Assembly: GCA_003024785.1 (NCBI GenBank)
Contig: PUQB01000443.1
Span: forward strand, 1 to 64,000
Reading direction: 5' to 3'
Source of the DNA: Selaginella tamariscina
Lineage: Eukaryota; Streptophyta; Lycopodiopsida; Selaginellales; Selaginellaceae
Length of the DNA: 64,000 bases
Shown: positions 2,212-61,300 of the stretch, piece after piece
How positions within the stretch are numbered: the first letter of the stretch is position 1
Layout of the letters: the number at the start of each line of letters is the position of its first letter
The notes under the pieces: model-generated
The model's database searches: none
What the model saw: the letters and a program-made list of their open reading frames with translations, nothing else
What the model was told of the DNA's origin: nothing
Made by a program: the position numbers and the translations under genes

Positions 2212-2691
2212 AGCAATTACAAAATTATAAAATATCATATATTTAATATTCATAATTATTATAAACTCTTTAATAATAGTACCAAATTGTATACTTAACT
2301 ATATAAATTTAAAAAATGATATGGAAGATTGACTATATTATTATAGGATTTTATATATATATTATTACTACTACAAATTTTTAATTAATAATGTTATATT
2401 TAAATATTAATATTTTAATAACAACATCAATATTTATATAATGTACCTCTTATGCTCTTCCTTAATTGTTATATTAGGCAATATATTATATAATTTAATA
2501 CATTCTACTTTTATAATGTTATTAATTTTTGTTCAATGAATGCTATAATTTATTAAAGGGTAGAATACAAAATAGAATATTCTAAAGAATATTCTCTTTT
2601 CAAACATATATTCTAAAGAATATTCCTTTAATATTAGAAAATGCTAATTAAATAGCTAAAATTGCTAATTATTAGGAAATGGGACTATAGC
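2212..2691. repeat. AT-rich right subterminal region of the TIR element, copy A
   Basis: This non-coding, strongly AT-rich stretch follows the transposase stop codon. It contains palindromic GAATATTC / AGAATATTCT motifs at about 2571-2632 and is nearly identical to 60513-60976 in the other copy. No gene is seen. The clustered palindromes next to the terminus could be transposase-binding subterminal repeats, which is inference. Confidence 0.6.
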
Positions 2692-2713
2692 CATGCCCAT
2701 TTTAGTTACAACT
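2692..2713 (+). repeat. Right-end TIR of the element, internal in copy A
   Basis: The sequence reads CATGCCCATTTTAGTTACAACT, identical to the right terminus at 60977-60998 and again followed by TGCATA. Here the next bases are not foreign flank. They are the start region of gene 2 in inverted order, so this terminus is buried inside a rearranged or doubled element. Confidence 0.75.
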
Positions 2714-2726
2714 TGCATAAAGGACG

Positions 2727-4657
2727 ATGGCAACAAAACTTTCCGAGCATACCCGTGAGAAGCTGACGAAAATCGGCGTTTTTAGCAAAGCCGAATCTCA
2801 CAATCGAGTAGTACCATAAGTTAGGGGAATGGGACGCTGCAGACACCAACCACTACAACAGCAAAATATGGGAGAAGTTCAAACACACGCGAGCCGTGTG
2901 GGAATCTCTTCAGCGACCACAAAGAGCTACCGCAGGGAATACACAATCTGCGGAGTACCGGGTAAGCAAATTGTTTGGGCGGGATTTATCTCGCCGGTAT
3001 ATTAATCTGTCTTTTTTCAGAGAGTTGAAGAAATTGTAGCAGTTGATTTTGCCCAGGTGGGCGGGAAGGAAACATCCTTTCTGATGATGTTGATTTCTTG
3101 TCCCGAGGATAGGATCTTTGCGAAATGGTTGGGGATTATGGAATCCTTTGCAAAAGGAACACTGAAGAAGAAGCAGACAAGTGAAGTGGAGCCCTCAGAG
3201 AAGTCTGCAAAGAAACCCAGTAAGACGCCGAAGTAAGTCTGTTCAATCTATAAAGGATGTAGACAACGATTTCAAGCTCACATGGTTGAAGCCTTTAAAT
3301 GGAACAACGATGGAGGAGATGGAAGTCTTGGCTGATTTGGTGATTGATGGCAAATTACAGATTAAAACAGCAGCCCCACCTCTCCTTTTCATCTCAAGGC
3401 AATGGAGTTGAAGACGGTCAGGCACTTCAAGGAGTGGTTGGGAATACACTGCCACAAACTGGGTTGGATTTCGGCTTCAACATACGAAGAGGTCAGCAAA
3501 TATTTGCATGTGACAAACGATGATATGCTTGTCGAATGGGTGAATCAATCGGAAGATCTGGGCAAGAATCTATTGCACGCCAACGCCAAAGGAGAACATT
3601 GCGATGACGCCTTCTCTTATGGCAGTCCTTCAGCAGCGGAGAACCGAGTTGAACCTTATAAAGGAGGATGCTACGAATCACGACAAGCCCTACAGATGTT
3701 TGTTGTTGGATTCGGAGACTTTATGGGGTACCATCACTGCTTGTAGGAAACCGTTTCAATTGTTCGTGATGGATCGGCGGGTGTCAAAAAATCTTCGACA
3801 GACAGGACACTAGAGGATTTGGTGGAGAAACTTAGCCGTGCAAGTATGTACAAAGAAGGTATTTATTATTGAATTCATACTTGCACTCTTGACTGATATC
3901 TACGTTTTCAGGTATTTATTTCTTGATTCTTGCTCATGTCACCGATACTTTGCCTTCTCCTTTGCCAAGAGGAATAAACATCGTTGGACAGGATTTTATA
4001 TGAATGATGCTGATCCGAAGTGCATTGATTCGTTGTTCACTTGGTTGTTAGGAATGCGCCAAACAATTTCAAACTTCCAAATGACTGGCCAGGCATCTGT
4101 TTGCACTCCAACGGCCCTGAACCTCCATCCGATACACCGATAGGTAGAGTGACGTATTCGGCAATGTACGTTATCCAAACATCACAAGTCAAGCGGCACG
4201 GAGCATCGTCAACTTGATCAGGGGTCCTCACAGTGATGCGTGGGTTTTTGACTACTGCACTAGGGGGTCCGTCTTGAAGGAGTGTTACCTTCGGCATACA
4301 TGTGTATTTGCCGTTGAAAAGGATAAGACCATGGTTGAGGACCTGAACAAGTGGATAGATAGGTTCTCAACTGAGTACCCCAACGAATCCATAAAGGAGT
4401 ATTTGAGAAAGTTCCCTCCAGATAAGTGCGATAGCTCTGAAGACGAATCTGGTTCAATGTCGGAGTCTGAGGACGAACTTCAATCAGATATTAGACCGGA
4501 AGTTATCTCGAGGAGTACAGAACATTCGCACACTCCATTACCCATGGAAACATCAATAGAAGATGCAGAAGATCTTGAACCATCTCACAAGCGGCTTAGA
4601 CCTTCTTCGCCTCACTCAGAAGGTAATAGCGAAGAAGAATTGTTAATGAATTGTTAG
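2727..4657 (+). pseudogene. Unrecognised cargo gene 2 with acidic Ser-rich tail, copy A
   Basis: I do not recognise the family. The start ATGGCAACAAAACTTTCC is conserved in the other copy (51458, minus). The N-terminus reads MATKLSEHTREKLTK. Intron 1 (about 2961-3020) has GTAAGC and TTTTTTCAG borders and contains one GGCGGGATTTATCTCGCC palindrome. Middle blocks include EEIVAVDFAQVGGKETSFLM, LTWLKPLNG, EEMEVLADLVIDGKLQI and LGKNLLHANAKGEHCDDAFSYG. The last 60 or so residues are rich in Ser, Asp and Glu (DSSEDESGSMSESEDE) with a basic patch HKRLRP, as in nuclear proteins. The tail frame ends at 4657 and AATAAA follows at about 4727. Several frame changes in the middle show decay or unrecognised introns. 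The 5' side is cut exactly at the junction with the buried TIR, so this copy has lost its promoter. Confidence 0.5.
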
Positions 4658-4858
4658 AGTGACGAATAGTTGTAAATGAGTGTAACATAAGGCATTTTTG
4701 TATATTTCGTTTATATTTGTACAGAAAATAAATTCTCAAGGATTAATGAAGCTTTTAGTTCAAACATGGGTCACACATTAACAAGGTAAATAATATACCT
4801 TGATAATTTTAAGGTCAGCTAATTATCATTTTGCAGATGTAATGAAACAATTGAGAAC

Positions 4859-6101
4859 ATGGATTTTCAGCATTGGCATGAGGTAAGAGAGGGGTTTGGC
4901 GACAATTTCTTGTGCCACATGTCAGAATGACAGAGTTCATGCAGGAAATGGATAATAATGCAGCTCAAAACATCGTTACCATGGGGGCCACTTCAGTTTT
5001 TTCATCATCATTTTTATTGGCTTCAGTTCCGAAATCAATTTCTTCAGCGCATGCAATATCTGAATCTTGTAAGGATGATGTACAATTAAATGATGAAGGG
5101 ATAGGCAACGAGATAGTGGCAACGGATAAATGTGAAAGGGAGCAAACAAGTGATTTGCAAAGTATTCAAGAGGCAACGCTATCTCATGTTACTCATGGCC
5201 ATATTGTGTTGTTGGATGTCAATGGTGTTCTGCTTCATCGACAAAGGCCCGAGGATAGGAAAAAAGAAATCAAACAAGGAGATTTCATTCCTTGTCATGG
5301 TAAATTTCGATATGATATTATTTTTCGTCCAGGGTTGGATCGTCTCTTTCAAAAGCTTAAGGAGATGGGTGCGCTTGTGGGGATTTGGTCATGCATGCAG
5401 ATTCATAACTTAACACCGCTGTTGAATTTGCTTAAGAAACATTGTAGTGTTGCAGAAGAGGTGATTCGTAAAGATTGGATTTTTGACCAGCGAATATGTT
5501 ATAAACCTCTCGAATTTCACAATATAAGAAAGGAAAGCAAGCCGTACTTCTTCAAGAATGAAAGAATAATTGGGACTCATGGGGAGATCAGTCGCTTAAG
5601 GATAATGAAGAATGCACAGATGTTAGTAGTAGACGACTCTCCTCAGAAGGCTATGCTCAACCAAAACATTGCTTGTATTCATCCAATCACTTTCGATCCA
5701 TATTCTGATACCGATATCATGGATGAGCTAGTGAACTACTTGGATACGTGCCTCAGAAAGAAGAATCTCGAAAATTTTTGTGAGCAGTATCCACCGTATC
5801 ATACATTTCCTGAAGCTTTTCTTTCTCGTGATTTGAATTTTATAAAATGAAGGATAGCAACCGGGCGCTTTATAATATTATTCTTAAGGAACGTCAGTTT
5901 TTAGATGAGCCTTTATGCAGACCTTCTCTTATTACATCTTATGTATTAACAAGGATGGCAACTCCCAATTGCATTCGTGAGAGTGTTAAGTGGTGGCAAC
6001 AACATCAAGATATTGACCAAAATGATTTGATTAATCCGGAGAGTGATGATTTAGACAAAATGAGGAGATTTCTTTGTATGATAGGAAGAAAGTATTTATA
6101 A
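4859..6101 (+). pseudogene. FCP1/NLI-interacting-factor-like HAD phosphatase, copy A
   Basis: Residues from about 5190 read GHIVLLDVNGVLLHRQRP, then FRPGLDRLFQKLKEMGALVGIWSCMQIHNLTPLL, and near 5625-5665 LVVDDSPQKAMLNQN. This is the order of FCP1-homology (HAD) phosphatases: nucleophile loop, Ser/Thr motif, then the DD motif. The nucleophile loop is D-V-N-G where catalytically standard members have DxDG/E, so the second (acid/base) Asp is replaced by Asn. FCP1-like proteins with that change are known in plants. The likely start is the MDF codon at 4859, because the other copy is open from there through HWHEVREGFG. A small indel near 4900 breaks that frame here, leaving a 312-codon frame from 4912 to 5850. 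A one-base loss near 5834 then splits off an 84-residue C-terminus (5847-6101). Activity cannot be judged from sequence. Confidence 0.75.
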
Positions 6102-6357
6102 AAAATTAACATGTTGATAAGAAAATGATTTCATTTGTAATTATGTTTGATAGTATTTCTTCATTATTGTAAACTATTTTTAGAATAATATGAATATTCT
6201 AAGATAGGAATATTCCTTACTAAGTAAGGTTATTGAAGGATTAATTAATTAATTAATTAATATTTAAGGCTTAATTACATATTAATTAAATGATTAATTA
6301 ATAATTAAAACTTAAGTATTAATTAGTAATTTATTTTATATTCCCATTTTCACGTAT
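6102..6357. repeat. AT-rich left subterminal region, copy A (inverted)
   Basis: The stretch is AT-rich and contains GAATATTC-like motifs at about 6185-6215 and a TTAA tetranucleotide run at about 6240-6262. It corresponds in reverse complement to 47988-48190. No gene is seen. Confidence 0.55.
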
Positions 6358-6379
6358 CATGCCCACTTTAGTTACAACG
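6358..6379 (+). repeat. Left-type TIR closing copy A
   Basis: CATGCCCACTTTAGTTACAACG is the exact reverse complement of the left terminus at 47966-47987. It marks the end of copy A; the following TACATATACTACT is unrelated flank. Confidence 0.75.
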
Positions 6380-6383
6380 TACA

Positions 6384-7800
6384 TATACTACTACTTCTTT
6401 GGCACATCGGTGCTCATTACCCTTGAGACGAGCAGATAAGGTCTTGCACATTTTATATGGTAATGGGCAGTCTCGTGCAGTATCACAGTACACACTTTGA
6501 CTACGCTGGTTATGGTCCCAACTGTAAGTTTCCCTCTGGGTCTCTTAGGGTTGTCCCTTCCAGGTCTTTGACATTATTCTAGGATGTGATTGGTTAAAGC
6601 AGTCGAAAGGTATGTGTGATTTTTCACTCTCTCCTCTTGTATTACGCTTGGAGTCTGTGTCTCTGCAGTCTGTTCTTTACGTCTAGAGAAGTTTGTTACT
6701 GTTTGTATCACGCATACATCTCTTTGATTCCAGTCTTGGGGTGGTGTTCATCTCAACAGGTTCAAATGCCGGATCTGTCACCTGAGTGTCAAGCATACTG
6801 CATCGAACAACTTAAGCAACAGTATGCAAGTTTGTTCAAATTTGATCTGTCCCAAGGTGCACGTGTGAAGACTCGACACTGTATACCCACCGGCAATGCA
6901 AAGCCTTTCAAAGTCCTGGTTCGACGTAGGTCACCAAGGAGTTGTCAGCCATGCGAACAGCTGTTACTGATATGATTGGTAAACGAGTGTGTCGTCCGTC
7001 ACGGAGTCTATGGGCATGTGAACCTCATTTGGTTCCCAAGCCTGATGGATCTCTCCAATTTGTGTGGATTATCGACCTCTTAACGATGTTACCATCAAAG
7101 ATGTCTATCCACTTCCGAACTCTGCCGATCTATTAGATCGTTTGGGTCAGAGTCGATGGTTTACTAAGTTAGATTTGGCATCAGGATATTGGCAGGTTTC
7201 TATGGCTAAAGAAGATATTCCGAAAACGGCCTTCCAGACACCATTTGGTCTTTACGAGTTTTGGTCATGCCTTTTGGATTGACTTCAGCTCCTGCCACCT
7301 TCAACGCATGATGGATGAGCTTCTTTTCGATATGCCTGATATCACTGTCGATTTTATTGACGATGTGCTCATTCATGGGTCTGGTTCTTGGGAGGATCAC
7401 ATTCGTGATGTACGGCGCGTTCTTGATCGATTTCGAGAAGTTGGCCTGAAGTTGAAACTTGAAAAGTGTGTGTTTGGTTCGACCGACACCACTTACTTGG
7501 GTTACCGTATATTCGAGAGGTTTACAAGTGGATTCAATGAAGTTACGAGCTGTTCGAGAGTTCCCTCGTCCCGTACAGTACAGGAAGTCCAGCGTTTCTT
7601 GGGCACGGTGCAGTACTTGGGTCGATTCATCGATCATCTCACTGATCGAACTGCCCCTCTTCGGGAGTTAGTTCGTCCACAGGTATCTTTCAGGTGGACT
7701 CGCAGGTGTCAGCAGGCATTTGACCAGTTAAAAGAGTTCCTGAAAATCCACCATTGCTTCAATACCCAGATTTTACTCGTCCGTTCATTTTACGAGTAGA
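6384..7800 (+). pseudogene. Ty3/gypsy fragment 1: linker and reverse transcriptase
   Basis: The 5' part (6384-6760) has no recognisable LTR or gag and is probably a truncated start. From about 6765 it reads MPDLSPECQAYCIEQLKQQY, then EPHLVPKPDGSLQF, DYRPLNDVTIKDVYPLP, SRWFTKLDLASGYWQV, IPKTAFQTPFGLYEF, VDFIDDVLIHG (the YxDD box, here FIDD) and RTVQEVQRFLGTVQYLGRFI. This is the standard order of a Ty3/gypsy reverse transcriptase. Several frameshifts (for example near 6930, 7060 and 7270) split it, so it is dead. Confidence 0.85.
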
Positions 7801-21155: not shown

Positions 21156-22873
21156 TCACGACAATTTCGAGTAGGCAAACATCCTTTCTTTGCCGACATC
21201 TCTCTCTCGCTGCACACTCTGTAAAACCCTAGATCTACAGCCTCGTTTTGTGCACTGACAGACAGAGAATATGCTCCTCAAATCAATAAAAATAACATTT
21301 CCTGCAACGTTCTCCTGCGATATATACTTCCTTACCTTATTAGCATTCACCATTCCCTCGATTTCCTCTCCTTCCAACGTTTCTAGCTGCATCACTCCTT
21401 CTTCCTTTACAGACTTAACCCGAAAAGGGCCTATCCATTTTAAATCAAGCTTTTGACTCATTTCTCCCACCTTACCTCTATACCACAGGACCAAGTCCCC
21501 TTCCTTTATCTCCTTTCCTCTTCTCTTCCTATCGAGCCAGGCCTTCTTCTCCTTTGGATAGCCTGTATAGTCCATAAGGTACCTCCTTAACTCATCCAAC
21601 TTCTCCAATTCTATTAAACGAGTTGCCATAGAGTCCTTCTCTCCTATATTATATTGTACCGCTATCCGCAAGGATGGCACAATAAACTCCATTGGGGTTA
21701 TGGCCTCTAAGCCATAAGCGAGCTTAAAAGGTGTCATACCAGTAGTCACTTTATAAGCTGTCCTATAGGCCCAGAGAACTTCTGGTAGCCTTTCATCCCA
21801 ATCCTTTCCGATTATCCTGAACTACCTTCCTTAACACGTTCTTAAGGACTTTATTTGTCGACTCAGCCTGCCCATTACCCTGTGGGTAATATGGTGTCGA
21901 CTTCTTGTGTTTTATCACAAACTCCTTCATGAGCATTTCTATCGTTTCATTCACGAAATGCTTTCCTCTATCACTCACAATTTCCTTAGGAATGCCATAA
22001 CGTACTATTATAGTATTGTATATGACCTTTGCTGTATTATATGCATCGGCCCTTCTCATAGGCTCTGCCTCTACCCATTTCGTCATATAATCTGTTAAAA
22101 CCAATATGTATTGATTCCTTTTTGAGCTCACAGGATTAATTGGTCCTATAAAATCCATTCCCCATTTCTGGAAAGGTTTAGTGGGAGAACTGGATTATAA
22201 GGTTGTATTTGTTTCTTTGGAGGCAATTGTGCACGTTGGCATTTATCACACGCCTTACAATAGCTACCTACCTCCCTCCATAAAGTAGGCCACCATAATC
22301 CTGCCTGAAGGATTTTCCTTCCTGTTATTTCCTCTGCAAAATGGCCTCCTGCAAGGCCTGAATGAGCCTCTTTTAAAACCTCCGGGACCTCTAAAGGGTC
22401 TACACATCTTAACACCCCATCGGACCCCAATTTGTACAATTTCCCTCCCACGAGAGAAAAGTGTCGTGTCCTCACGACAAACAACTTCCTTTCATCTGCT
22501 GTCCTATAAATAGGTGGTACTATTCCAGTGGCTAGATACTGTTTTATATGATCTAACCACCTTAATGGAACGTCGACACGAAATAAATTCGCATCCGGAA
22601 AATCATCCATAGTCACGTATAGGAACTTCTCCTGTTTTAATATGACTTAAATGGTCAGCTGTTCATGCTGCCTTCTGGTTTATGAATTATCTCAAAATTA
22701 TATTCCTGCAAAGTAAAACCACATGGTTAACCTTCCTGTAAGTATAGGTTTTAAGTAAATATAATAAAGCTTTATGATCTACAAAAATCTTCACTTTATT
22801 AGCCAAAAGGTAGTGTCTAAATTTATGGATAGCATATACCATCCCTAAAGCTTCCTTTTCTGTAGTGGTGTAA
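21156..22873 (-). pseudogene. Ty3/gypsy fragment 3: RNase H end and integrase
   Basis: Reading from 22873 leftward, the RNase H part is NYTTTEKEALGMVYAIHKFRHY and KIFVDHKALLYLLKTY. Integrase zinc-binding residues are in EAHSGLAGGHFAEEITGRKI, GLWWPTLWREVGSYC and KACDKCQRAQLP. The core is MDFIGPINPVSSKRNQYILV, DYMTKWVEAEP, EIVSDRGKHFVNETIEMLMK and STPYYPQGNGQAESTNKVLK. The distal part (from 21749) is TTGMTPFKLAYGLEAITPMEF, ending in DLKWIGPFRVKSVKEEG. It is well preserved but split by a few shifts. It continues the polyprotein at 24658-26220, from which it is separated by the insertion at 22879-24652. Confidence 0.85.
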
Positions 22874-47279: not shown

Positions 47280-47961
47280 TGGTCGTTGGGACTCTGCAAG
47301 CCAGATGTGGTGCTTCCTATGAAGCCTCGGTGGTTGCTAGGACGCTGTGGATAGCGTCCAACCCCGGGGTCTGAGCTGACAAACCAACCTACCTCGGGAG
47401 TACTAGAAGGTGCTGAATGGCCTCTACCCGGACGCCACGAGGGTCCATGTACAGGGATGGGGGAGTTCTCCTGGGGTACCACTGTGTCGGTTAGTAGAGT
47501 GCGTTTTGGACCTAGGAGCGGAGCAAGAGGAGCATCACCGGTAAGATGGTGAACAAAAGGAGCATATGTTATATATATATCTAGTGCCTGATTGAGTACA
47601 AACTACCTCCAACAGGAAGCAAACACAAGACGCAAACTTCCTACCCAAAAAGACCCCGACCCACTACAGCCTTCCTGCATATATAGTGGGTCACCTAGCG
47701 CTAGACCCTAGGTACAGGTGGCACCTTCTTACTGGTTTTGCCGCGATGTGACAAAGTCCTATTTGTCTCATTTATGTGCCTCCCTCACGCGTGCTATCCT
47801 GCGTACCCTGGGTAGTTGATCCGAACGATCGGATCTACGACGCTTATGCCACCACCTGACATCAGTCATCATCAATCCCTACCTCCGGTAACTTCCTTAC
47901 TCGGCGCTTTGTCCCGTCGCTTGTCCGCGCCGACTGGTAGTTTACGGTGTCAGACCATGAT
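47280..47961 (-). mobile_element. Family 1 LTR, inverted; host of the 13-kb transposon's left flank
   Basis: It starts TGGTCGTTGGGACTC on the plus strand, with the TATA-like box near 47682 on the minus strand. Its outer (U3) end stops about a dozen bases short, at GTGTCAGACCATGAT, where the TIR element begins. Confidence 0.75.
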
Positions 47962-47965
47962 TGCA

Positions 47966-47987
47966 CGTTGTAACTAAAGTGGGCATG
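47966..47987 (+). repeat. Left TIR of the 13-kb transposon
   Basis: CGTTGTAACTAAAGTGGGC followed by ATG, preceded by TGCA. It is the reverse complement of the copy A end at 6358-6379. Confidence 0.8.
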
Positions 47988-48207
47988 ATACGTGAAAATG
48001 GGAATATAAAAATAAATTACTAATTAATACTTAAGTTTTAATTATTATTAATCATTTAATTAATATGTAATTAAGCCTTAAATATTAATTAATTAATTAA
48101 TTAATCATTCAATAACCTCTTAATAAGGAATATTCCTAAACTATCTTAGAATATTCATATATTCTAAAAATAGTTACAATAATGAAGAAATACTATCAAA
48201 CATAATT
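47988..48207. repeat. Left subterminal AT-rich region
   Basis: It contains a TTAA run (about 48082-48105) and GGAATATTCC / GAATATTC palindromes at about 48128-48165, mirroring the palindromes at the right end. No gene. Confidence 0.55.
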
Positions 48208-49335
48208 TTAAACACTCTCACGAATGCAATTGGGAGTTGCCATCCGTGTTAATACATAAGATGTAATAAGACCAGGTCTGCATAAAGGCTCATCTAAAGA
48301 ATGACGTTCCTTAAGAATAATATTATAAAGCGCCCGGTTGCTATTCTTCATTTTATAAAATTCAAAATCACGAGAAAGAAAAGCTTCAGGAAATGTATGA
48401 TACGGTGGATACTGCTCACAAAAATTTTTGAGATTCTTCTTTCTGAGGCACGTATCCAAGTAGTTCACTAGCTCATCCATGATATCAGTATCAGAATATG
48501 GATCGAAAGTGATTGGATGAATACAAGCAATGTTTTGGTTGAGCATAGCCTTATAGGAGAGTCGTCTACTACTAAGATATGTGCATTCTTCATTATCCTT
48601 AAGCGACTGATCTCCCATGAGTCCCAATTATTCTTTCATTCTTGAAAAGTAGGCTTGCTTTCCTTTCCTATATTGTGAAATTCGAAAGGTTTATAACATA
48701 TTCGCTGGTCAAAAATCCAATCTTTACGAATCACCTCTTCTGCAACACTACAATGTTTCTTAAGCAAATTCAACAGCGGTGTTAAGTTATGAATCTGCAT
48801 GCATGACCAAATCCCCACAAGCGCACCCATCTCCTTAAGCTTTTGAAAGAGACGATCCAAGCCTGGACGAAAAATAATATCATATCGAAATTTACCATGA
48901 CAAGGAATGAAATCTCCTTGTTTGATTTCTTTTTTCCTATCCTCAGGCCTTTGTCGATGAAGTAGAACACCATTGACATCCAACAACACAATATGGCCAT
49001 GAGTAACATGAGATAGCGTTGCGCTCTGAATACTTTGCAAAATCACTTGTTTGCTCCTTTCACATTTATCCGTTGCACTATCTCGTTGCCTATCCCTTCA
49101 TCATTTAATTTACATCATCCTTATAAGATTCAGATATTGCATGCGCTGAAGAAATTGATTTCGGAATTGAAGCCAATAAAAATGATGATGAAAAAACTGA
49201 AGTGGCCCCCATGGTAACGATGTTTTGAGCTGCATTATTATCCATTTCCACATGAAACTCTGTCATTCTGACATGTGGCACAAGAAATTGTTGCCCAAAC
49301 CCCTCTCTTACCTCATGCCAATGATGAAAATCCAT
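48208..49335 (-). pseudogene. FCP1/NLI-interacting-factor-like HAD phosphatase, copy B
   Basis: From 49335 the N-terminus is open: MDFHHWHEVREGFGQQFLVP, through AAQNIVTMGATSVFSSSF. A one-base loss near 49105 shifts the frame. From 49046 to 48636 the catalytic domain is open, with GHIVLLDVNGVLLHRQRP (the same D-V-N-G loop as copy A), FRPGLDRLFQKLKEMG and SCMQIHNLTPLL. Another shift near 48635 leads to the frame 48627-48208 with KAMLNQNIACIHPITFDPYS. In this copy the C-terminal extension is in frame with the domain, showing the protein originally continued past SRDFEFYK. About 155 bp encoding the final residues are deleted relative to copy A. Confidence 0.75.
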
Positions 49336-49547
49336 GTTTTCAATTGTTTCATTACATCTGCAAAATGATAATTAGCTGACCTTAAAATTATCAAGTATAT
49401 TATTTACCTTGTTAATGTGTGACCCATGTTTTGAACTAAAAGCTTCATTAATCCTTGAGAATTTATTTTCTGTACAAATATAAACGAAATATACAAAAAT
49501 GCCTTATGTTACACTCATTTACAACTATTCGTCACTCTACACATTCA

Positions 49548-51458
49548 TTAACAATTCTTCTTCGCTATTACCTTCTGAGTGAGCGAAGAAGGTCTAAGCC
49601 GCTTGTGAGATGGTTCAAGATCTTCTTCATCTTCTATTGATGTTTCCATGGGTAATGAAGTGTGCAAATGTTCTGTACTCCTCGAGATAACTTCCGGTCT
49701 AATATCTGATTGAAGTTCGTCCTCAGACTCCGACATTGAACCAGATTCGTCTTCAGAACTATCGCACTTATCTGGAGGGAACTTTTCAATACTCCTTTAT
49801 GGATTCGTTGGGTAGTCAGTTGAGAACCTATTATCCACTTGTTCAGTACTCAACCATGGTCTTATTCTTTTCAACGCAAATACACATGTATGCCGAAGGT
49901 AACACTCCTTCAAGACAGACCCCCTAGTGCAGTAGTCAAAAACCCATGCATCACTGTGAGGACCCCCTGATCAAGTTGACGATGCTCCATGCCGCTTGAC
50001 TTGTGATGTTTGGATAACGTTACATTGTCGAATACGTCACTCTCACCTATCGGTGTATCGGATGGAGGTTCGGGGCTGTTGGAGTGCAAACAGATGCCTG
50101 GCCAGTCATTTGGAAGTTCGAAACTGTTTGGCACATTCCTAACAACCAAGTGAACAACCGAATCAATGCACTTCAGATCAGCATCATTCATATAAAATCA
50201 TGTCCAACGATGTTTATTCTTCTTAGCAAAGGAGAAGGCAAAGGTATCGTGACATGAGCAAGAATCAAGAAATAAATACCTGAAAACGTAGATATCAGTC
50301 AAGAGTGCAAGTATGAATTCAATAATAAATAACTTCTTTGTACATGCTTGCACGGCTAAGTTTTTCCACCAAATCCTCTAGTGTCCTGTCTGTCAAAGGA
50401 TTTTTGACACCCGCCGATCCATCACGACAATTGAAACGGTTTCCTACAAGCAGTGATGGTACCCCATAAAGTCTCCGAATCCAACAACACATCTGTAGGC
50501 TTGTCGTGATTCGTAGCATCCTCCTTTATAAGGTTCAACTCGTTCTCCGCTACTGAAGGACTGCCGTAAGAGAAGGCGTCATCGCAATGTTCTCTTTTTG
50601 GCGTTGGTGTGCAATAGATTCTTGCCCAGATCTTCCGATTGATTCACCCATTCGACAAGCATATCATCATTGTCAATGCAAATATTTGTTGACCTCTTCG
50701 TATATTGAAGCTGAAATCCAACCCAGTTTGTGGCAGTGTATTCCAACCACTCCTTGAAGTGCCTGACCGTCTTCAACTCCATTGCCTTGAGATGAAAAGG
50801 AGAGTGGGCTGCTGTTGTTAATCTGTAATTTGCCATCAATCACCAAATCAGCTAAGACTTCCATCTCCTCCATCGTTGTCCATTTAAAGGCTTCAACCAT
50901 GTGAGCTTTGAAATCGTTGCTACATCCTTTATAGATTGAACAGACTTAGACTTCGGCGTCTTACTGGGTTTCTTTGCAGACTTCTCTGAGGGCTCCACTT
51001 CACTTGTCTGCTTCTTCTTCAGTATTCCTTTTACAAAGGATTCCATAATCCCCAACCATTTCGCAAAGATCCTATCCTCGGACAAGAAATCAACATCATC
51101 AAAAAGGATGTTTCCTTCCCGCCCACCTGGGCAAAATCAACTACTACAATTTCTTCAACTCTCTGAGAAAAAAGACAGATTAATATACCGGCGAGATAAA
51201 TCCCGCCCAAACAATTTGCTTACCCGGTAGTCTGCAGATTGTGTATTCCCTGCGGTAGCTCTTTGTGGTCGGTGAAGAGATTCCACCGGCTCGCGTGTGT
51301 TTGAACTTCTCCCATATTTTGCTGTTGTAGTGGTTGGTCTGCAGCGTCCATTCCGCCGATAACTTATGGTACTGCTCGATTGTGAGATTCGGCTTTGCTA
51401 AAAACGCCGATCTTTTTGTCAGCTTCTCACGGGTATGCTCGGAAAGTTTTGTTGCCAT
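49548..51458 (-). pseudogene. Unrecognised cargo gene 2, copy B
   Basis: It starts MATKLSEHTREKLTKRSAFL at 51458. The first intron again contains a GGCGAGATAAATCCCGCC palindrome (about 51190-51208) between splice-like borders. Blocks shared with copy A include EDRIFAKWLGIMESFVKG, KSVQSIKDV, EEMEVLADLVIDGKLQI and ADLKCIDSVVHLVVRNVPN. The acidic tail is MSESEDELQSDIRPEVISRS. A GTATTT..TTTTCAG segment near 50280-50325 may be a second intron. Frame changes are frequent. No known domain is recognised; conservation of the same blocks in two copies argues that it was a real protein. Confidence 0.5.
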
Positions 51459-51555
51459 CGTTCCTTTGTGTGTTCATCGAGAAGTCGTTGGGCTGCCGTT
51501 ATTGTTGCTGGCCACTAATGATGTAGTACTTGATAGATCTTTTATGCGCACAAAA

Positions 51556-52540
51556 TAGCATTATGTGGAACGGTGTAAGAATTGTCATCCTTCATCTTCT
51601 CCATGAGCTCAGCTACACGTTCCTAATTCAGTGGCCTGTAATTGAAGTTTGGGTTGACGCTGCAATACTTAACCCACACTGGTAAATCCTATCATCCAAC
51701 ATCATTTCTTTGTGGCTTATTGCAGCATGGGACGCCACAGGTGCAGCTGACAAAACGACTAATGATTTTCTTCTACGATCCGAATCAACATGTGTGATCT
51801 CCGATTGATGCTGTTCTAATGTTCCCGGCACACTCTTCCAGCTCCCGAAATTTGCTAAGCAAATTGAACGTGATCTGTAAAGAACCTGAGACCAAGCCAC
51901 CCTCTCAATCTTCTTTATGATGTCGCAGTGTTCTTTTTCAATGTGAAGAGGACGATTGCTCCACTTGCTAATTTTCTGTATTGTGAAGCAATATCTCCTG
52001 ACAATACACCTACTCGATGAGTCTGAAGATCTTCGAAGTAAACATCCAGATGGATCCCCTCCATAGATGGGCTTTGTTGAGTTGAAGAAGAACTCCAAGG
52101 TCAACATCATTAGTGAACACTGAACATCATTATCCACAAGTCGACAAAACCACCCGAAATTAATGTTGTAACTGGCGACCTTTGGATCCGAGAACGTGAC
52201 ATTGGATGGAACGAGGCATATGTGTCGAGCATCGTTCAATCTGGGTTCACAACATGCTTTCGGATGTTTGACTAGCAACCCACTTTCCATTGTTTTGCTT
52301 GTCCATGCGATGTGACAGAGGTTAGTTTGACAGCAACCATGGTTGTTCCAATGCGCTTCCCGTTTAGTTTGAAATATGGCCAAGTTGATTCCAGAATCCC
52401 CCTGCCCATCTCTTCTCCTGCTCTCGTCTTTAATGTCACCTCAATTCCACATCTGAATACAAAAATGATTAGTTCAAGCACATATCCGAGTATAACAGAT
52501 TTTATTTTAATTCTTACCCAGAATTTGACGACGACTCCAT
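51556..52540 (-). pseudogene. Unrecognised cargo gene 3
   Basis: Exon 1 is 23 nt (52540-52518, MESSSNS) with donor GTAAGAATT. The acceptor TTTTTGTATTCAG lies at 52453-52465 and the frame is kept into GCGIEVTLKTRAGEEMGRG, then STWPYFKLNGKRIGTTMVAV. After a frame change a 251-codon open stretch (52383-51628) contains LLVKHPKACCEPRLNDARHI, KVASYNINFGWFCRLVDNDV and LMMLTLEFFFNSTKPI. A protein-like block in another frame (GIHLDVYFEDLQTHRVGVLS) suggests at least two further indels. The end probably lies near 51556 (ERVAELMEKMKDDNSYTVP). It is just upstream of gene 2 on the same strand. I recognise no family. Copy A lacks it because of its truncation. Confidence 0.45.
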
Positions 52541-52854
52541 ACTAATGACTCGATCTTTGTTTAATAAATCGTCCTTCTGCAAAATAATACACTATGAACA
52601 CACACACTTGTATAAACCCCAAATATACAAAAATAATACACAGAGAGAAGTAGACGGAATTAATTGTCCAAAGCTCACCTTTGTGCTAGTCAAAGGAAAG
52701 ATAACATTTTTTTTAGAACCACCACAAATGTGAGCTCTGGACAGTTTTACATAGTTCTAGCTTTTACTCGAAATATTATGATAAGATGATAAAAGTAAAT
52801 AAAATGAGATATGCAATTTATATATACTAATACACATATATATTCACATGGAAG

Positions 52855-53541
52855 GTGCGGCGGGATTAATCTCGGCCACTCCTTCAATGCCTCCTGAAAG
52901 AGTGGGCGGGATTAATCTCGCCACCTTTCTGGAGGCCTTGAACGGGAGTGCGGAATTAATCTTGCCACCTTCTCGGTCTAAGAGAGAACTGGGCAGGATT
53001 TATTTGGCACACCCCTTCAGTGACTCCAGAAAGGAGACGGGATTAATCTCGCCCACCATGTAAGGGATGGTTAAATGAATTTCGCCACCCTTCCCCGTTC
53101 TCTCCATTGGTATGTTGTAAACCTTCTATGTCTCAGACAGAAACGTTTGGGATTGGTCCGACTCACCAATGGAGAAAAAAGAAGGGTGGCGGGATTCATT
53201 CTCAACAGGAGGCTTGAAGGCTCGGCGGGATTAATCCCGCCGCCCAGGGCCTTCACTCGGTCCCTATGCGGCGGGATTAATCCCGTCAGACGCCAATTCC
53301 CTACTCGAAATCGGGCGGATTAATCCCGCCGCCTAGGCCCTTTAGGCAGGCCTTTGGCGGCGGGATTAATCCCGCCTGATTCCGCACAGGCAGCGGGATT
53401 AATTCCGCCGCCCCGGCCCTTCAGGCAGCCAATGGTGGCGGGATAAATCCCGCCCGATCGCACAGGGCATGCGTACGCGGCGGGATTAATCCCGCCGCTA
53501 CACACGCTCACCATATAGCGGCGGGATTAATCCCGCCGCTA
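52855..53541. repeat. Palindrome array 1: about 15 units around GGCGGGATTAATCCCGCC
   Basis: Units recur every 35-45 bp in most of the array, separated by unrelated GC-rich spacers. The left units (52857-53090) are degenerate, for example GGAATTAATCTTGCC. The right units (53222-53538) are mostly perfect 18-bp palindromes. The array lies just upstream of gene 3, which is transcribed away from it. Confidence 0.9.
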
Positions 53542-53554
53542 CACACAACACACA

Positions 53555-53797
53555 GATATATACAGATTATACAGATACTAGTACACATAATATATGTATG
53601 TATACATAGGTATATATATATATATATGTGTATATGTATATCGTGTGTATGCGTGTGTGAAACAAAAATCATACAGATAAACAAACACACACACACACAT
53701 ATATATACAGGAGTGTGCGTGTGTGTGCGAGAGATACAATTAACAAATCAATAAAATTATACAGATACACACACACACACATATATATAGATAAATA

Positions 53798-53851
<54 letters not shown>

Positions 53852-53954
53852 GTGTGTGTGTGTATATGTATATATATATATCTGTGTGTGTATATGTATA
53901 CGAGTGTGCGTGTGTGCGAGAGATAGAGATCTATAGAGAAGAGAGAGAGAGAAG

Positions 53955-53995
<41 letters not shown>

Positions 53996-54073
53996 ATGTT
54001 ATGTGTGTGTGTGTATGTATACGAGTGTGCGTGTGTGTGCGAGAGATAGAGATCTATAGAAGAGAGAGAGAGG

Positions 54074-54107
<34 letters not shown>

Positions 54108-54290
54108 GTGTGTATATGTATACGAGTGTGCGTGTGTGTGCGAGAGATAGAGATCTAAATTATATTATTAAGATACACACACATATAAATATATATGTGA
54201 ATAAAAATAAATAAATATCACAAATAAACGCAGAGGAGTGTGCGTGTGAGAGAGAGAGAGAGATCTCACCTGTGTGAGAGAGAGAAGGAG
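53555..54290. repeat. Microsatellite block (TA)n, (TG)n, (GA)n
   Basis: It includes a (TA)n tract of about 50 bp at 53800-53849. Three longer units of about 100-120 bp carry TATACGAGTGTGCGTGTGTG and AGAGATAGAGATCT (near 53898, 54018 and 54119). No gene; the open frames here are read-throughs of the repeats. Confidence 0.85.
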
Positions 54291-54299
54291 ATTTCGCTG

Positions 54300-54540
54300 C
54301 CGCCGCCTTACAAACCCTAGGAATATACCAAAACCCTAAAAGGAATAGAATATATATTAACCCTAATCGAATATTCCTTTTAAGAATATACTTAAACCCT
54401 AAAAAGAATAAACTATAGATTCGCCCTAAACGAATATTCTTTCATTATATTATCAGCGTGTGCGTGTGCGTGGGTGTATCACATACACCCCAAGAATAAA
54501 TATCATGCAAGGGTTTAACACGTGTGTGTCCATGAGAGTG
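54300..54540. promoter_or_regulatory. Telo-box-like AAACCCTA cluster with AATATTC motifs
   Basis: ACAAACCCTAGG, AAAACCCTAAAAGG, TTAACCCTAATC and TTAAACCCTAAAAAG occur within about 120 bp at 54308-54405, next to GAATATTCC motifs. AAACCCTA telo-boxes are known plant promoter elements. Use as a promoter here is inference from position between divergent genes. Confidence 0.35.
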
Positions 54541-54629
54541 TTAAAGTTTCACATGCAGCGATACATATATACACACATAGTATTATACACATAGACATAC
54601 ATACATATTAGTATATATTAATATTAGAG

Positions 54630-55140
54630 AGACAGAGTACAGGATCATGTATGGTGTGTATGTATGAGAGAAGAGTGACAATACATATTATGGATCATGC
54701 ATGGTGTGTATGTTTGAGAAAAGAGAGACAGTACATATTTACATGGATCATGCATGGTGTGTATGTATGAGAGAAGAGTGAGAGTGTTAACAAATTAAAT
54801 TCATACACATTGGATATATTAGTACACACATATACATACACACGTGTATACACACAGACATACATACATATTACATGTGTAAATTCAATGTAGGGTTTAG
54901 GGTTTAGGGTTAGGATGGATCATGCATGGTGTTTATGTATGAGAGGAGTGAGTGTTATACACAGATATACATTATACATATTACATAATATTGTAACATC
55001 AGTACATATTATGGATCATGCATGGTGTGTATGTATGAGAGAAGAGACAGGCTACATATTATGGATCATGATCATGCATGGTGTGTATGTATGAGAGAAG
55101 GGATTATGCATGGTGACACTGTGTATGTATGAGAGAAGAG
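54630..55140. repeat. Interspersed repeat GATCATGCATGGTGTGTATG (seven units)
   Basis: About seven copies of GATCATGCATGGTGTGTATG followed by TATGAGAGAAGAG (near 54643, 54691, 54747, 54917, 55014, 55067 and a variant near 55103), with variable CACATA-rich spacers. No gene. Confidence 0.8.
54891..54914. repeat. Interstitial plant-telomere-like motif
   Basis: TAGGGTTTAGGGTTTAGGG continues to TTAGG, three units of TTTAGGG. It is too short to be a chromosome end but supports a plant origin. Confidence 0.7.
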
Positions 55141-55329
55141 ATAGAGTGTTAACAAATGAAAATCGTACACATTGCATATATTATATTAGTACACATATAT
55201 ACATACACACGTGTATACACACAGACATACATATATATTACATGTGTAAATTCAATGTGTTACATACACACACACTGAGTACATATAGATCATACATGCG
55301 TTGAACATGATGTTTTTCAATAAAGAAGC

Positions 55330-56242
55330 AACATATAATTTCTCAAGTTTGGTTTAGGGCAATGTGCATGTGTGTGCATATGTGTCTCTGTAAGTGCTTC
55401 TAATGCGTGTGCACATGTATATATAAATTTATGATTGTGTTTATATATAATATGTGCAAAACAAACATCGAATAATTAAGAAAATAATATTAATATACAC
55501 ACTATGAACATATTTTAAATTATACATAATAATATATGATTTTATCTAATATATAGCCATATATAGTTTTAATAATATATATTAATTTAATATTGATAAT
55601 AAGGTTTAACACTAGAATATTCTTGAAATAATAACAAATTAATTGAGAAAATCCCATTAATATATAGAATAATTACTGAGATAATTAAGAATAAGACTAA
55701 TTTAATTATGATAATCAGGTTTAATATTGGAATATTCTTTGAATATTAAGAAAAAAATAAAGAATATCCCATTAATAGTAGGAAATGTAAATTAATTACT
55801 CGAGTAATTAAGAAAATAATAATAATAAACAGACTATGAATATATTTTAAATGATACATAATAATATATCAATTTATTTATTGTATTATGTATATATATA
55901 TATAATATAAACTTAATAATATATACTTGAATATTAAGAATGTAGAATAATTACAAAAATTTCGTAATATTAAACAGCTTGAAGCACTTGAATGACATTA
56001 AATGCAATTTTAAAACACTCATTGGAATTGGAGAGTATATATGTCAGACTGTCGGTTATTTGTTTCAACTCATCTTAAATTTTCTTTTCTGTTATTTCAA
56101 AAATTTGAATTTCTGACATAAGTATTATCAGTCTGACATGTAAATTTGAAAATACATTTAATTTCCCACTCAAATTCAGATCTGGTTCTTTCTCCGGCAA
56201 GGGTTTCTTCATTTTCACTCTTCAGATTTTCTTTTTTCTTCT
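55330..56242. other. AT-rich central region of the transposon
   Basis: No gene. It is strongly AT-rich with scattered GAATATTC motifs (about 55615 and 55730) like those near the ends. The right part (56160-56240) becomes pyrimidine-rich, TTTCTTCATTTTCACTC and TTTTCTTCTTAG, as expected before an exon. Confidence 0.5.
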
Positions 56243-56324
56243 TAGTGATCAGCTCAGGAGCGACATTAAATTGGGTGCGCTATTGTTTATAGGAAAGCAC
56301 GGCGCCTTCAGTGCTGTTTACAAG
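56243..56324 (+). CDS. Candidate upstream exon (LGALLFIGKHGAFSAVYK)
   Basis: The segment lies between a strong acceptor (TTTTTTCTTCTTAG) and a strong donor (GTAAGTATT). One frame is open and reads DQLRSDIKLGALLFIGKHG then AFSAVYK. The GKxGxFxxVYK pattern recalls a protein-kinase glycine loop, but 27 residues are too few to assign it. The next good acceptor, TTTATGTGCAG at about 57412, would make array 2 intronic; the two frames do not join perfectly, so an indel or a different splice must be assumed. It could instead be a 5' UTR exon. Confidence 0.35.
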
Positions 56325-56487
56325 TAAGTATTATAAACAAATTTAGATATATTTATAAAGATTCACTCTCTTACATTCTCTCTTAAATTTTAGAATTTAG
56401 GGATTTAGGAATGCATTAGGATTACAATATATTCTGTTAGGGATTTATCCCGTTTAAATATACTTTTAACTTAATATTCTCGGTTAG

Positions 56488-57272
56488 CCGGGGCGGCGGG
56501 ATTAATCCGGCCATTTTTTTTCGCCTCTTTGAAGAGGTGGCGGGATTAATCCCGCCACCATCTCTTTCATAGCTATGGCAGAATTAGTTCGGGCAATGCT
56601 TCTCCGCCTCTTAAAAAGAGCGGCGAGATTAATCCCGCCGATAACTCTCTCAACTGATAATGATTTACTTGAATTTATTAGAAAGAGTTGTCGGCGGGAT
56701 TAATCTCGCCAACCATTTTAGGAGGCAGAGAAGGGGTGGCGGGATTAATCTCGCCACTACTTCCCTGTTTTAAATATTTGTGGGCAGAATTCATCCCGAA
56801 TCTCTTTGAAATCATAGTTTCGGAGAGAGTTGTGGGCGGGATTAATCCCGCCGCTTATTCCCCGTCGTCAGAGTTGTGGGCGGGATTAATCCGCCTATTC
56901 TCCGTCGTCAGTGTTGTGGGCGGGATTAATCCCGCCCCCTCTTCCTCGTCGGAGGAATTTGCGGCGGGATTAATCCCGCCGACTCTCACAGACGAGGAAG
57001 ATCCGGCGGCGGGATTAATCCCGCCGGTACTTCCTAGTCGGAGGGAGCCCGCGGGATTAATCCCGCCGCTACTTCCTCGTCGGAGGGACCGCGGCGGGAT
57101 TAATCCCGCCGTACTTCCTCTCTGAGGGAGCCCGCGGCGGGATTAATCCCGCCGACTCTCTCCGAGGGGTAAGTGCGCGGGATTAATCCCGCCGACTCTC
57201 TCCGAAGGGGTAGAGTCGGCGGGATTAATCCCGCCGACTCCTCTGAGGGATCTGGGCGGGATTAATCCCGCC
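56488..57272. repeat. Palindrome array 2: about 18 units of GGCGGGATTAATCCCGCC
   Basis: The right part (56834-57272) has about 11 nearly perfect palindromes spaced 38-45 bp, separated by short spacers related to each other (CTACTTCCTCGTCGGAGGGA, ACTCTCTCCGAGGGG). The left part is degenerate. It sits just upstream of, or in an intron of, the transposase-like gene. Confidence 0.9.
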
Positions 57273-57412
57273 CATCAGTTGTATTAATAAACATGAGATA
57301 TTATCTTATAATAATTATGTATTATTGCACATGCATATTATTAAGCAACCAGTTAGATTTCTTAAAATATTGCATAAACAGATATCATAAATAACAATTA
57401 TTTATGTGCAGG

Positions 57413-60400
57413 ACAATATGTTAATACTGGAGATAAAGTATGTCTTCTTCGGAACAACGAGATAGTTGGCACTGGAACTGTGGAAGTTCGAGATATAATG
57501 CATCATGTCACAATATTGCCCAAGGATCTTGTGTGTACGTATGGGTGAACACCATTTTCAAGCATGTTGAGGTTCTGGGAATGGAATTTGAGGAGGGTTC
57601 TCCTGTATTGTGGAATTTGGATGAAGTCAAGGCTGACACAGAATATAGAGTCACAAACAAATAGTAGCACGAGTTTACCAGATGATGGCTTGCCTGCTGT
57701 GATGGATGAGGTGATTCTCTTTCTTCATGAGATTGAAGTCGGAGAGGCATCATCACAGCTATAAATCCAATGGAAGCAGTGTCAGAAGAGAAACTAGGGT
57801 CCGACTTCGTGGGTGTAGTTGTGACAGAGGTTTCACCTAATGGCACATTTATCCTGGATCCCTCGTGAGGTGGCGAACATCTGAATTAAGACGGCAAGAT
57901 GGTTCAACATATTCTGGGTTGGATTTCAATAATAACAACCCGGAAGAACAACTCATATTTGAAGAGGTTCCTTGCATTGGTCCTATTGTAAGAAAAAGGC
58001 GATTCATGGGTTGTAGATCTTCCCCTGCAAGTTTCAGCAAGAGGGTAAGATGGATCCTACATCTTCCGAAAGTGTTACGAGCATTTCCACGATTGACTGT
58101 TGCAAGAAGAAGTGTTGTCAGATGGCAGACCGGAATGAAATTACCCAATGTAGACATGTCTTTCGTATGCTCACCCAAAAGCAAAGGCATGAGTTTGTAT
58201 ATGCTGCACTAACTGGGTGTATTGATGGAATGGCCTCGGACACAGGTTATCAGAGTACATCCATGGTATTTAATAAGGTGGCCATCTGCTTCAAAGCTTG
58301 GTACAGTATATACGGGATCCCAAAGACCACGTTCTACCGTCGGAGGGATGAGTGGCTAGATGGAGCGCGAACCTCAGTACATGGGAACACTGGCTTGGTC
58401 AAAACCCGCTCTCACATTATGGCAGCCATAGAGATACTCAAGGCTTTTGTGGAAGCAAATGCAGACAGGATGCCTCACAAATGCCGAACCACAAATGCAG
58501 GGGTCAGGGAAAATCTCAAGGTTTTGCCTTCATCTACACTCAATTGAAGCTGTGTGAACATGTGAACAAGTGCCTCAGTTTGATGGGGCTCCAAGCAATC
58601 TGCACTGGTACCTTCAACAACATATGGAATACTCATTTTAAGGATGTGGAGATTGCAAAACACTCTAGCTTTTCCAAGTGTGACACTTGTACATCATTGA
58701 AGGCTGCAGAGGCTTGTGCAAAAACCTTGGTGGAGATCACTGCCATTCAAAAGAAGATGGAGGCCCACATGATTGCACAACAAACTTGCCGGTCTCAGTA
58801 CTATGCACACCGCATGCTTTCTGTGTCACGCCCATCAGAGTACCTGTGCTTGATCCATGACAAGATGGATCATTCAAAGACCAGCATTCCAAAGCTCTTG
58901 CAACACCAAAGTGCCTTGGAAATGTCATGAAACTTCCGATTTCATTGACAGGTGTGCTAACACATGGACACGGTTGTGAGTCATATGGACACTTTTCACT
59001 TCCACATTGGTCTAGCGACTCCAATTTCACTATTGGGTCGTTGCCATGTGTTTCAGAAACCTTGAAGCCCACTCACAGACAAGTCCTATCAGTGATCTCA
59101 AAGTGAAGAAACAACACCTTCAACCTTTACATAATGCTCTCATGAACACGTCTGCACTTGAGGCTACTTGGGAATATGAGAGGCATTGTCAGCAACCTGC
59201 ACAAAAAACAGATGGCCCTGTTGAGAGTTCAGGTTCAGTGGAGGGATCTAGCTCAAATAGTGTACATGTGTCCTCAACATCAAATAAGCTTCCTCGTCAT
59301 TTGCTTTTACAGATGGATAATTGTGCAGGCGAGAACAAAAATAGGTAAATCATTTTACTTAAGGGTTTCTCAAGCTCATACTTACTTTTATTTTCTAGAT
59401 ATGTGCTAGCATACTTGTCAATGCTTGTTGCCAAAGGTGTGTTTGAAACAATCACGCTCAGTTTCTTATGGTTGGTCACACTCATGAAGATATTGATGCG
59501 TTCTTCAGCAAGGTCTCCAACTCTACAAAAAGGACAAGTGCACTTACCTTACCGCATATGATGAATCTTTTTGAAAATTGCATCTCCAAAAAAAGTTGTG
59601 CTTTGCTTGTGACTGAGGTGCCAGACTTCAAAAAATTTCTCAAGGAGTATATAAAAGAGGGAGTGATTCTTTAGTTGGTCACCTTGTGCCGCTACAATTC
59701 TTTTTCTCCATACAAGATGGTATACCTATTATGCAGTACAAGTTACGGCCATCAGAGCAGGAGTGGTTACCGAAAGAGGGGTTAATGCTCTTCAAAAGTG
59801 GAGAGAATGGAAAGCCACTTCTCCTAGAAGGACAACCAGACCCTATTCCATTGAGTGCCCAGCTCAAGGAACAAGAGGTTATTATTGATGGCATCAAAAA
59901 TATGTGGCATGGTTCAAAAAAATGCTAAAGAATTCTGATAAGGCAACTGGTTACTCAGAACTATATAAGCATGTGGTTGACTATTGGGAGACTGTTTTCG
60001 AGAGTTGGAAGGGCCTACTCTCACAAGTACAGAATTGCAACACCCTTTTTGGCCTAAAACAAGGTGGCGAGAGGAGATTGAAATGACATCACTAAGCACA
60101 GACCACATAGAAGCCAGTAGTGATGTGGAAGTGCAAACCCCACACTTTGTTGGACAAAGGAACCAAAACCTAAAGCATACTTTGATTGCTGCCAGGATCT
60201 TCAAAAACTAATGATGGTTCTCATTACTCCAGATGCGTCATATAATCAACCTATTTGGATGGGTCAAATTATCGACACACCTGAAGTAATCACAAAAAAT
60301 ACTATTGTTAAGGTTGCATGGTTCAAACCACAAAAAAGGCGACACGAGAAGAGAAGAAAGATATAATGGATACCTAGAAAAACATGGTCTCCCAATCAAA

Positions 60401-60512
60401 AAGACCCAGCATGTTTTATAAATGTTAATCCATTCGATATGGTGGATGTCAAGAAGCGTTGATAAAGTCACGATTAACAAAACTGCAAGGAATGTATGTT
60501 TTCTGAAGCTTA
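57413..60512 (+). pseudogene. DUF7869-type transposase-like gene, copy B
   Basis: An acceptor GTGCAG opens the exon at 57413. The N-terminal block GDKVCLLRNNEIVGTGTVEV, then HHVTILPKDLVCV and EEGSPVLWNLDEV, resembles the small Tnp1/En/Spm-associated domain; this is a tentative match. A Cys-rich block CCKKKCCQMADRNEITQCRH and VFRMLTQKQRHEFVYAAL follows near 58097-58197, the usual N-terminal mark of DUF7869 proteins. Then come GIPKTTFYRRRDEWLDG, CDTCTSLKAAEACA, LIHDKMDHSKTSIPKLL, LLQMDNCAGENKNR, an intron at about 59345-59399, and VGHTHEDIDAFFSKV. Shifts near 58525, 59465, 59660 and 59900 break the frame, so this copy is dead although most blocks are intact. Total length would exceed 900 codons. 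Confidence 0.7.
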
Positions 60513-60976
60513 AAGCAATTACAAAATTATAAATATCATATATTTAATATTCATAATTATTATAAACTCTTTAATAATAGTACCAAATTGTTTACTTAAC
60601 TATATAAATTTAAAAAATGATATGGAAGATTGACTATATTATTATAAGATTTTATATAATATTATACTACTACAAATTTTTAATTAAAATGTTATATTTA
60701 AATATTAATATTTAATAACAACATCAATATTTATATAATGTACCTCTTATGCTCTTCCTTAATTGTTATATTAGGCAATATATTATATAATTTAATACCT
60801 TCTACTTTTATAATGTTATTAATTTTTGTTTAATGAATGCTATAATTTATATAAGGGTAGAATACAAAATAGAATATTCTAAAGAATATTCTATTTTCAA
60901 ACATATATTCTAAGAATATTCCTTTAATATTAGAAAATGCTAATTAAATAGCTAAAATTGCTAATGGGACTATAGC
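60513..60976. repeat. Right subterminal AT-rich region
   Basis: It is a near copy of 2212-2691, including GAATATTCTAAAGAATATTC-type palindromes at about 60872-60922. No gene. Confidence 0.6.
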
Positions 60977-60998
60977 CATGCCCATTTTAGTTACAACT
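60977..60998 (-). repeat. Right TIR of the 13-kb transposon
   Basis: CATGCCCATTTTAGTTACAACT, identical to 2692-2713 and inverted relative to 47966-47987 with two mismatches. Followed by TGCA. Confidence 0.8.
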
Positions 60999-61002
60999 TG
61001 CA

Positions 61003-61300
61003 TATTGTCAACTAGTTGTGCCGAGTTTACCACTTCTCGAAGGTTCAGCCATGTGGTTTTGTGTTGTTTCCTTGGATAGGCAAGGCAAAGGCTAACTGTG
61101 GTAACCAAGGTGCCTCTTTGCCCTCCATTAACCTCTCTTGGCCCACCTGACGCATCTTCCTGGCTAGTTGGTACTCGCTGATCTGCAATTGTTCAAACGA
61201 GTAAATCCTGACTCTTCGGTCTCTCTTTTTGGTCGCAAACCTACTTGCTACGGTGAACTCCATCTGTGTGTAATTAATATTCCTCCATAGTTGCCACAAA
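61003..61300 (-). pseudogene. Family 1 gag N-terminus, diverged copy
   Basis: On the minus strand it reads MEFTVASRFATKKRDRRVRI, YSFEQLQISEYQLARKMRQV and GQERLMEGKEAPWLPQ. The same N-terminus follows the LTR in at least three other copies. It is more diverged than those, perhaps a separate subfamily. Confidence 0.6.

Follow-up and report, generated by a model that had tools for sequence, protein, structure and literature searches.

The superfamily of DNA transposons that comes closest to the element presented here is Sola, reportedly described by Bao et al. in 2009; the likeness is one of described features, and membership is putative. According to PMC10741241, Sola elements encode a DDD transposase and generate 4-bp duplications. 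Their repeats measure 11-1124 bp, most of them are 2-9 kb long while a few exceed 15 kb, and their hosts include the moss Physcomitrella and bacteria. Our element lies in a 64,000-nucleotide stretch of Selaginella tamariscina DNA (bases 1-64000 of contig 775, hereafter the window). It is a DNA transposon of very large size, typically 14-15 kb, bounded by inverted repeats. In all likelihood it is moved by a DDE/D-type transposase of the DUF7869 family, carries fixed accessory genes and palindrome arrays, and stands nearest to Sola, whose description agrees with its 4-bp duplication, near-invariant aspartates of the DDD type, 27-bp repeats, paired ends 10.2-22.2 kb apart and a DUF7869 homologue in moss. 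We know of no described Sola element with such a size as the norm, with these two accessory genes or with palindrome arrays.

Copy 1 of the window contains the following features. A preliminary description of this DNA had located the element correctly at 47966-60998 and had set its ends about 5 bases short on each side.

47961-61003, copy 1, outer six bases of both ends included
47961-47987, plus strand, left terminal inverted repeat, outer hexamer TTGCAC (usual left: ATGCAC) followed by GTTGTAACTAAAGTGGGCATG; placed by terminus match, duplications and empty sites
48211-49262, minus strand, divergent phosphatase gene of the NLI-interacting-factor (NIF; HAD) type, PF03031, frameshifted in copy 1
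49551-52545, minus strand, middle gene, an orphan of about 930 residues in about four exons joined by eye with GT-AG introns, starting MESSSNSG
52859-53537, first array of the palindrome GGCGGGATTAATCCCGCC and its variants (array 1), located upstream of the middle gene
56495-57272, second palindrome array (array 2), located upstream of the DUF7869 gene
57416-60513, plus strand, DUF7869 gene (PF25273), two main exons and a 54-nt intron at 59345-59398, frameshifted in copy 1; start, stop and intron placed by eye
60977-61003, minus strand, right terminal inverted repeat, ATGCAAGTTGTAACTAAAATGGGCATG read inward

Termini, target duplication and empty sites

Genome counts are exact matches over the S. 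tamariscina assembly (300.7 Mb, 1,391 contigs). The 18-bp terminus GTTGTAACTAAARTGGGC was found 3,050 times (1,549 and 1,501 by strand) and its reversed control not once; the window holds four mismatch-free matches (47967 +, 60980 -, 2695 - and 6361 -), with 0.12 expected at ≤3 mismatches. Pairing of left and right ends was analysed among the first 100 terminus places listed, adjacent termini being at most 25 kb apart. This gave 22 convergent pairs spanning 10.2-22.2 kb, 17 of them 13.7-15.4 kb; a G-type end was joined to an A-type end in 20 of the 22, and none was shorter than 10 kb in the manner of miniature inverted-repeat elements. Both ends were fetched for 20 pairs, leaving out the 22-kb pair on C2 and a pair on C77. 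The terminal inverted repeat is 27 bp long, imperfect, and begins with ATGCAM. Read inward, the hexamer outside the 18-mer was ATGCAC at 16 of the 40 ends, ATGCAA at 14 and another sequence at 10, and genome-wide TGCA followed by A or C adjoins 2,372 of the 3,050 termini. The earlier view of a transposon bounded by inverted repeats is borne out by these thousands of termini and by ends that coincide between copies. The host genome probably contains more than 1,000 copies, and a family of autonomous size may occupy an estimated ~7% of it (3,050/2 x 14 kb over 300.7 Mb). Neither the terminus nor relatives of DUF7869 were present in the viral collection.

The flanks were scanned for duplications at offsets 0-9 and lengths 3-8, and the 4-mer at offset 6, the sole offset with matched pairs clearly above control, was picked afterwards. 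A perfect 4-bp duplication directly outside ATGCAM...KTGCAT was present in 9/20 elements, against 6/380 mismatched left/right pairings, and the nine vary in sequence (ATGT, ATTA, ATTA, AAGA, ACTT, TAGA, TATC, CGTT and CTAT). Copy 1 of the window has no perfect duplication (flanks ATGA / ATTG).

The flanks of the nine duplicated elements were joined with one 4-mer and compared with the window and the fetched loci, one also being searched genome-wide, and the search for empty sites proposed in the preliminary description yielded three. The first junction is continuous within other copies of the same element, the second in a dispersed repeat at window 27663-27415, and the third, from the genome-wide search, at eight further loci (L081-L085 and L087-L089); L086 is broken off before the junction and L080 is the flank of the insertion itself. 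The ATGCAM hexamer is absent at the joins of sites 2 and 3, and site 1, where an ATGCAT happens to stand right before the ATTA, is less clear if taken alone. Since the three empty sites are taken together and the 4-bp duplications lie outside the hexamers, the hexamers, including TGCA, belong to the element. The TGCA beside both ends had earlier been offered as a possible target duplication or as part of the element; the duplications outside it and the empty sites rule out the first and support the second.

The structure of the ends and of the target duplication was also compared with other superfamilies. CACTA/En-Spm elements have CACTA ends, a 3-bp duplication, a TNP2-type transposase and subterminal motifs; they are large elements of plants in which accessory proteins that bind DNA accompany repeated binding motifs. 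Our element resembles them in large size, accessory genes and repeated motifs, but CACTA is ruled out by the ATGCAM... ends, the 4-bp duplication, the internal position of the motif arrays and DUF7869 in place of a TNP2-type protein. Academ elements have a 3-4-bp duplication and an extra XPG or helicase domain; the 4-bp duplication is compatible, and Pfam shows no XPG or helicase domain in the DUF7869 pieces or in the 8 homologues scanned. According to PMC9587614, the duplications of Kolobok are specific to TTAA, and KolobokP is flanked by long terminal direct repeats. KolobokP resembles our element in pairing a DDD/E transposase with an additional, captured gene on the opposite strand. Kolobok and piggyBac were rejected because the 4-mers vary instead of reading TTAA (PMC9587614), and no long terminal direct repeats as in KolobokP were seen in the copies compared. 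Mutator-like elements, with 7-12-bp duplications, and Tc1/mariner, with TA duplications (PMC10741241, in part), were rejected because the duplication here is 4 bp and of varied sequence.

Two further observations concern the ends. At L054 (C633, around 258896) the final 2.3 kb of the element directly follow a stretch that lies 0.3-1.16 kb in from the left end, and the locus looks like an internally deleted, non-autonomous derivative. Left-type termini stand about 250 bp apart at C1:2394832/2395084 and C80:563732/563981, once divergent and once in tandem, and these sites may hold a terminal module of that length in repeated form.

The DUF7869 gene as probable transposase

The plus-strand gene matches Pfam PF25273 in the window with E 1e-26, which confirms the DUF7869-type gene named in the preliminary description and goes along with the transposase role proposed there. 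In the genome, two copies show frames of 585 + 392 codons (E072 on C21) and 659 + 247 codons (E074 on C1), and the sole break is a stop within the short intron. A PF25273 profile search of the genome turned up 4,249 candidates, and the 150 that were scored yielded 300 matches; its open frames of up to 1,092 codons were not used as a sign of intactness, as they span the intron stop in both copies checked.

An alignment and a confident structure model place five near-invariant aspartates at RNase-H positions. Such residues close strand 1, follow strand 4 and open the last core helix, and we infer that these would be the catalytic ones. In the structural check suggested earlier, the fold scored as moderately similar to DDE transposases and integrases. 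The DUF7869 protein is very probably the transposase. As a DDE/D-type enzyme it would bind the terminal repeats, cut the target with a 4-nt stagger and join the element to it. Pfam lists DUF7869 as a domain of unknown function, and the ends, duplications and empty sites tie it to transposition by copy-level evidence.

We collected 190 homologues, from liverwort, moss, mollusc and metagenome data, and these proteins become transposase candidates as well. The named land-plant homologues listed, from Riccia and Physcomitrium, show 29-36% identity. In a pattern-based scan of 84,980 prokaryote genomes only three DUF7869 contigs were found, of 4-6 kb and apparently mis-binned. L001, a 4.3-kb contig filed under a cyanobacterial metagenome-assembled genome, has a single-exon DUF7869 open reading frame of 947 residues, flanked on either side by variants of the palindrome TTTAGCTCGAGTCGAGCTAAA. 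It is probably eukaryotic DNA that was mis-binned, and a further element of the DUF7869 kind.

Whether the element is itself a large member of Sola, in which case DUF7869 would be a Pfam placeholder for the transposase of Sola1, 2 or 3, appears to us evenly balanced. The Sola features given in PMC10741241 fit the element, and a Physcomitrium protein (P0063) is among the DUF7869 homologues; against this, the bacterial hosts listed in that paper contrast with the three apparently mis-binned contigs of the prokaryote scan. That DUF7869 instead defines an unnamed superfamily of eukaryotic DNA transposons is a real possibility, which we hold slightly short of even. It is favoured by the blank Pfam function and by a literature search for DUF7869, PF25273 and a Physcomitrium accession that found no paper among 5.39 million, and it is opposed by the fit of the Sola description. 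Repbase names do not use Pfam numbers, so a Pfam number missing from papers says little against a named superfamily.

Accessory genes and palindrome arrays

Gene content was compared in ten complete genome elements and copy 1 of the window (n=11). Both DUF7869 exons, the NIF-type gene and parts B and C of the middle gene are present in 11/11 and part A in 10/11, with part B matched over only 40% of its length in a partly masked copy. The gene set and its order, the DUF7869 gene and two minus-strand genes, are the same in the 11 copies, and where pieces longer than 1.5 kb align, any two copies agree at 81-99% of positions (median 94%). Neither the pair of minus-strand genes nor the pair of palindrome arrays is a chance passenger; both are constant components of the element. 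The preliminary description had counted three passenger genes on the minus strand; the genes are there, and since the two inner groups of open reading frames join by eye with GT-AG introns into one gene, the passengers number two.

For selection, 9 to 11 other copies were compared with one reference copy each, and synonymous changes were set against expectation. A synonymous excess was found in DUF7869 exon 1 (p 0.0004, a test weakened by a first stretch partly out of frame) and in the middle gene in part A (p 0.002) and part B (p 3e-5); it was not significant in DUF7869 exon 2 (p 0.16), the NIF-type gene (p 0.26) and middle part C (p 0.36). The middle gene seems to be needed by the element, because parts A and B show fewer amino-acid changes than expected. 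Its presence in the copies examined and the purifying selection on its first two parts could suggest that the orphan is the transposase and DUF7869 the cargo. We give this very little credence, as DUF7869 has an RNase-H-like core, conserved aspartates and its many homologues, and the middle protein gave none. DUF7869 is the preferred transposase.

For the middle protein we found no family worth naming in Pfam, PHROGs or PDB, two PDB rows being designed repeat proteins, and no homologue among 7,460 candidates, for which search words were drawn from the first 500 residues only. A structure model from the single sequence was uninformative (predicted local distance difference test score 33). By eye, and without statistical support, the GQHT-containing segment YIISGQHTITAAQRL is ParB-like and a later segment has a methyltransferase-like motif.

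The NIF-type assignment comes from PF03031 matches with E 4e-12 on the window copy at 4882-5847 and E 1.5e-12 on genome copy E060. None of 510 candidates proved to be a homologue of the protein at E≤1e-3, and 4 NIF loci, fetched from 154 reported matches, bore no real similarity to it. A PF03031 search of the genome (150 of 951 candidates scored) listed 49 matches with an identical score of 45.8 bits, of which 19 have frames of 340 codons and at least two lie inside examined elements; the stronger matches are presumably host genes.

The 18-bp palindrome (≤3 mismatches) occurs 16 to 46 times per copy in all 11 copies and is absent from the 44.4 kb of the window outside the elements. Steps shorter than 400 bp number 335; their median is 45 bp, and 240 of them measure 38-47 bp. 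Ten of the 11 copies have two arrays, and the eleventh, shorter and partly masked, shows the second only. The exact palindrome has 27,128 matches in the genome and its control none, about equal to the yield of 1,500 elements. The arrays lie upstream of the two divergent gene sets and are probably binding sites for a regulator that the element would encode, with the middle protein as the first candidate. A wider proposal joins DUF7869 as an unnamed superfamily to a self-encoded control or segregation module, in which a DNA-binding orphan, ParB-like by eye, acts on the two iteron-like palindrome arrays, and to a captured phosphatase, together letting a 14-kb element exceed 1,000 copies; we consider it unlikely. 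A lone palindrome variant also lies at window 51190-51207, in an apparent intron of the middle gene, and recurs near there in 10/11 copies.

Nested and damaged copies in the window

Two partial copies are located at the start of the contig.

1-2718, plus strand, right half of another copy, truncated where the contig begins; right end 2695-2718
2719-6384, minus strand, left half of a further, inverted copy with left end 6361-6384, its middle gene split by the 1-2718 copy

Window 1-2719 matches 58316-61004 at 97.4% identity. In inverted orientation, 2716-5987 matches 51470-48211 at 96.0% and 6139-6383 matches 48207-47962 at 94.4%. The right end of the first copy (...GTTACAACTTGCAT) abuts AAAGGA..., which is middle-gene sequence of the inverted copy. 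At this join the right end TTGCAT is followed directly by AAAGGACGATGGCAAC, and continuous copies read ...CAAAGGAACGATGGCAAC; the uninterrupted form was seen in nine copies (eight fetched and copy 1), one with an extra A, and E056 and the partly masked E068 had no match to the search string. Because the right end directly abuts middle-gene sequence that is uninterrupted elsewhere, window 1-6384 is one element nested within a second one's middle gene; the contig includes only one side of this insertion. A second, rearranged copy had been described at 1-6379; the shared ends and cargo stand, and the rearrangement is a nested insertion.

Copy 1 is broken by frameshifts and is among the more damaged copies, and the DUF7869 part of the 1-2718 copy is frameshifted also. 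Between these copies, window 10-47 kb consists largely of repeats 69-96% alike to each other within the window, and 22146-22616 (minus strand) encodes an integrase zinc-binding domain (PF17921, E 6e-12) as in long terminal repeat retroelements.

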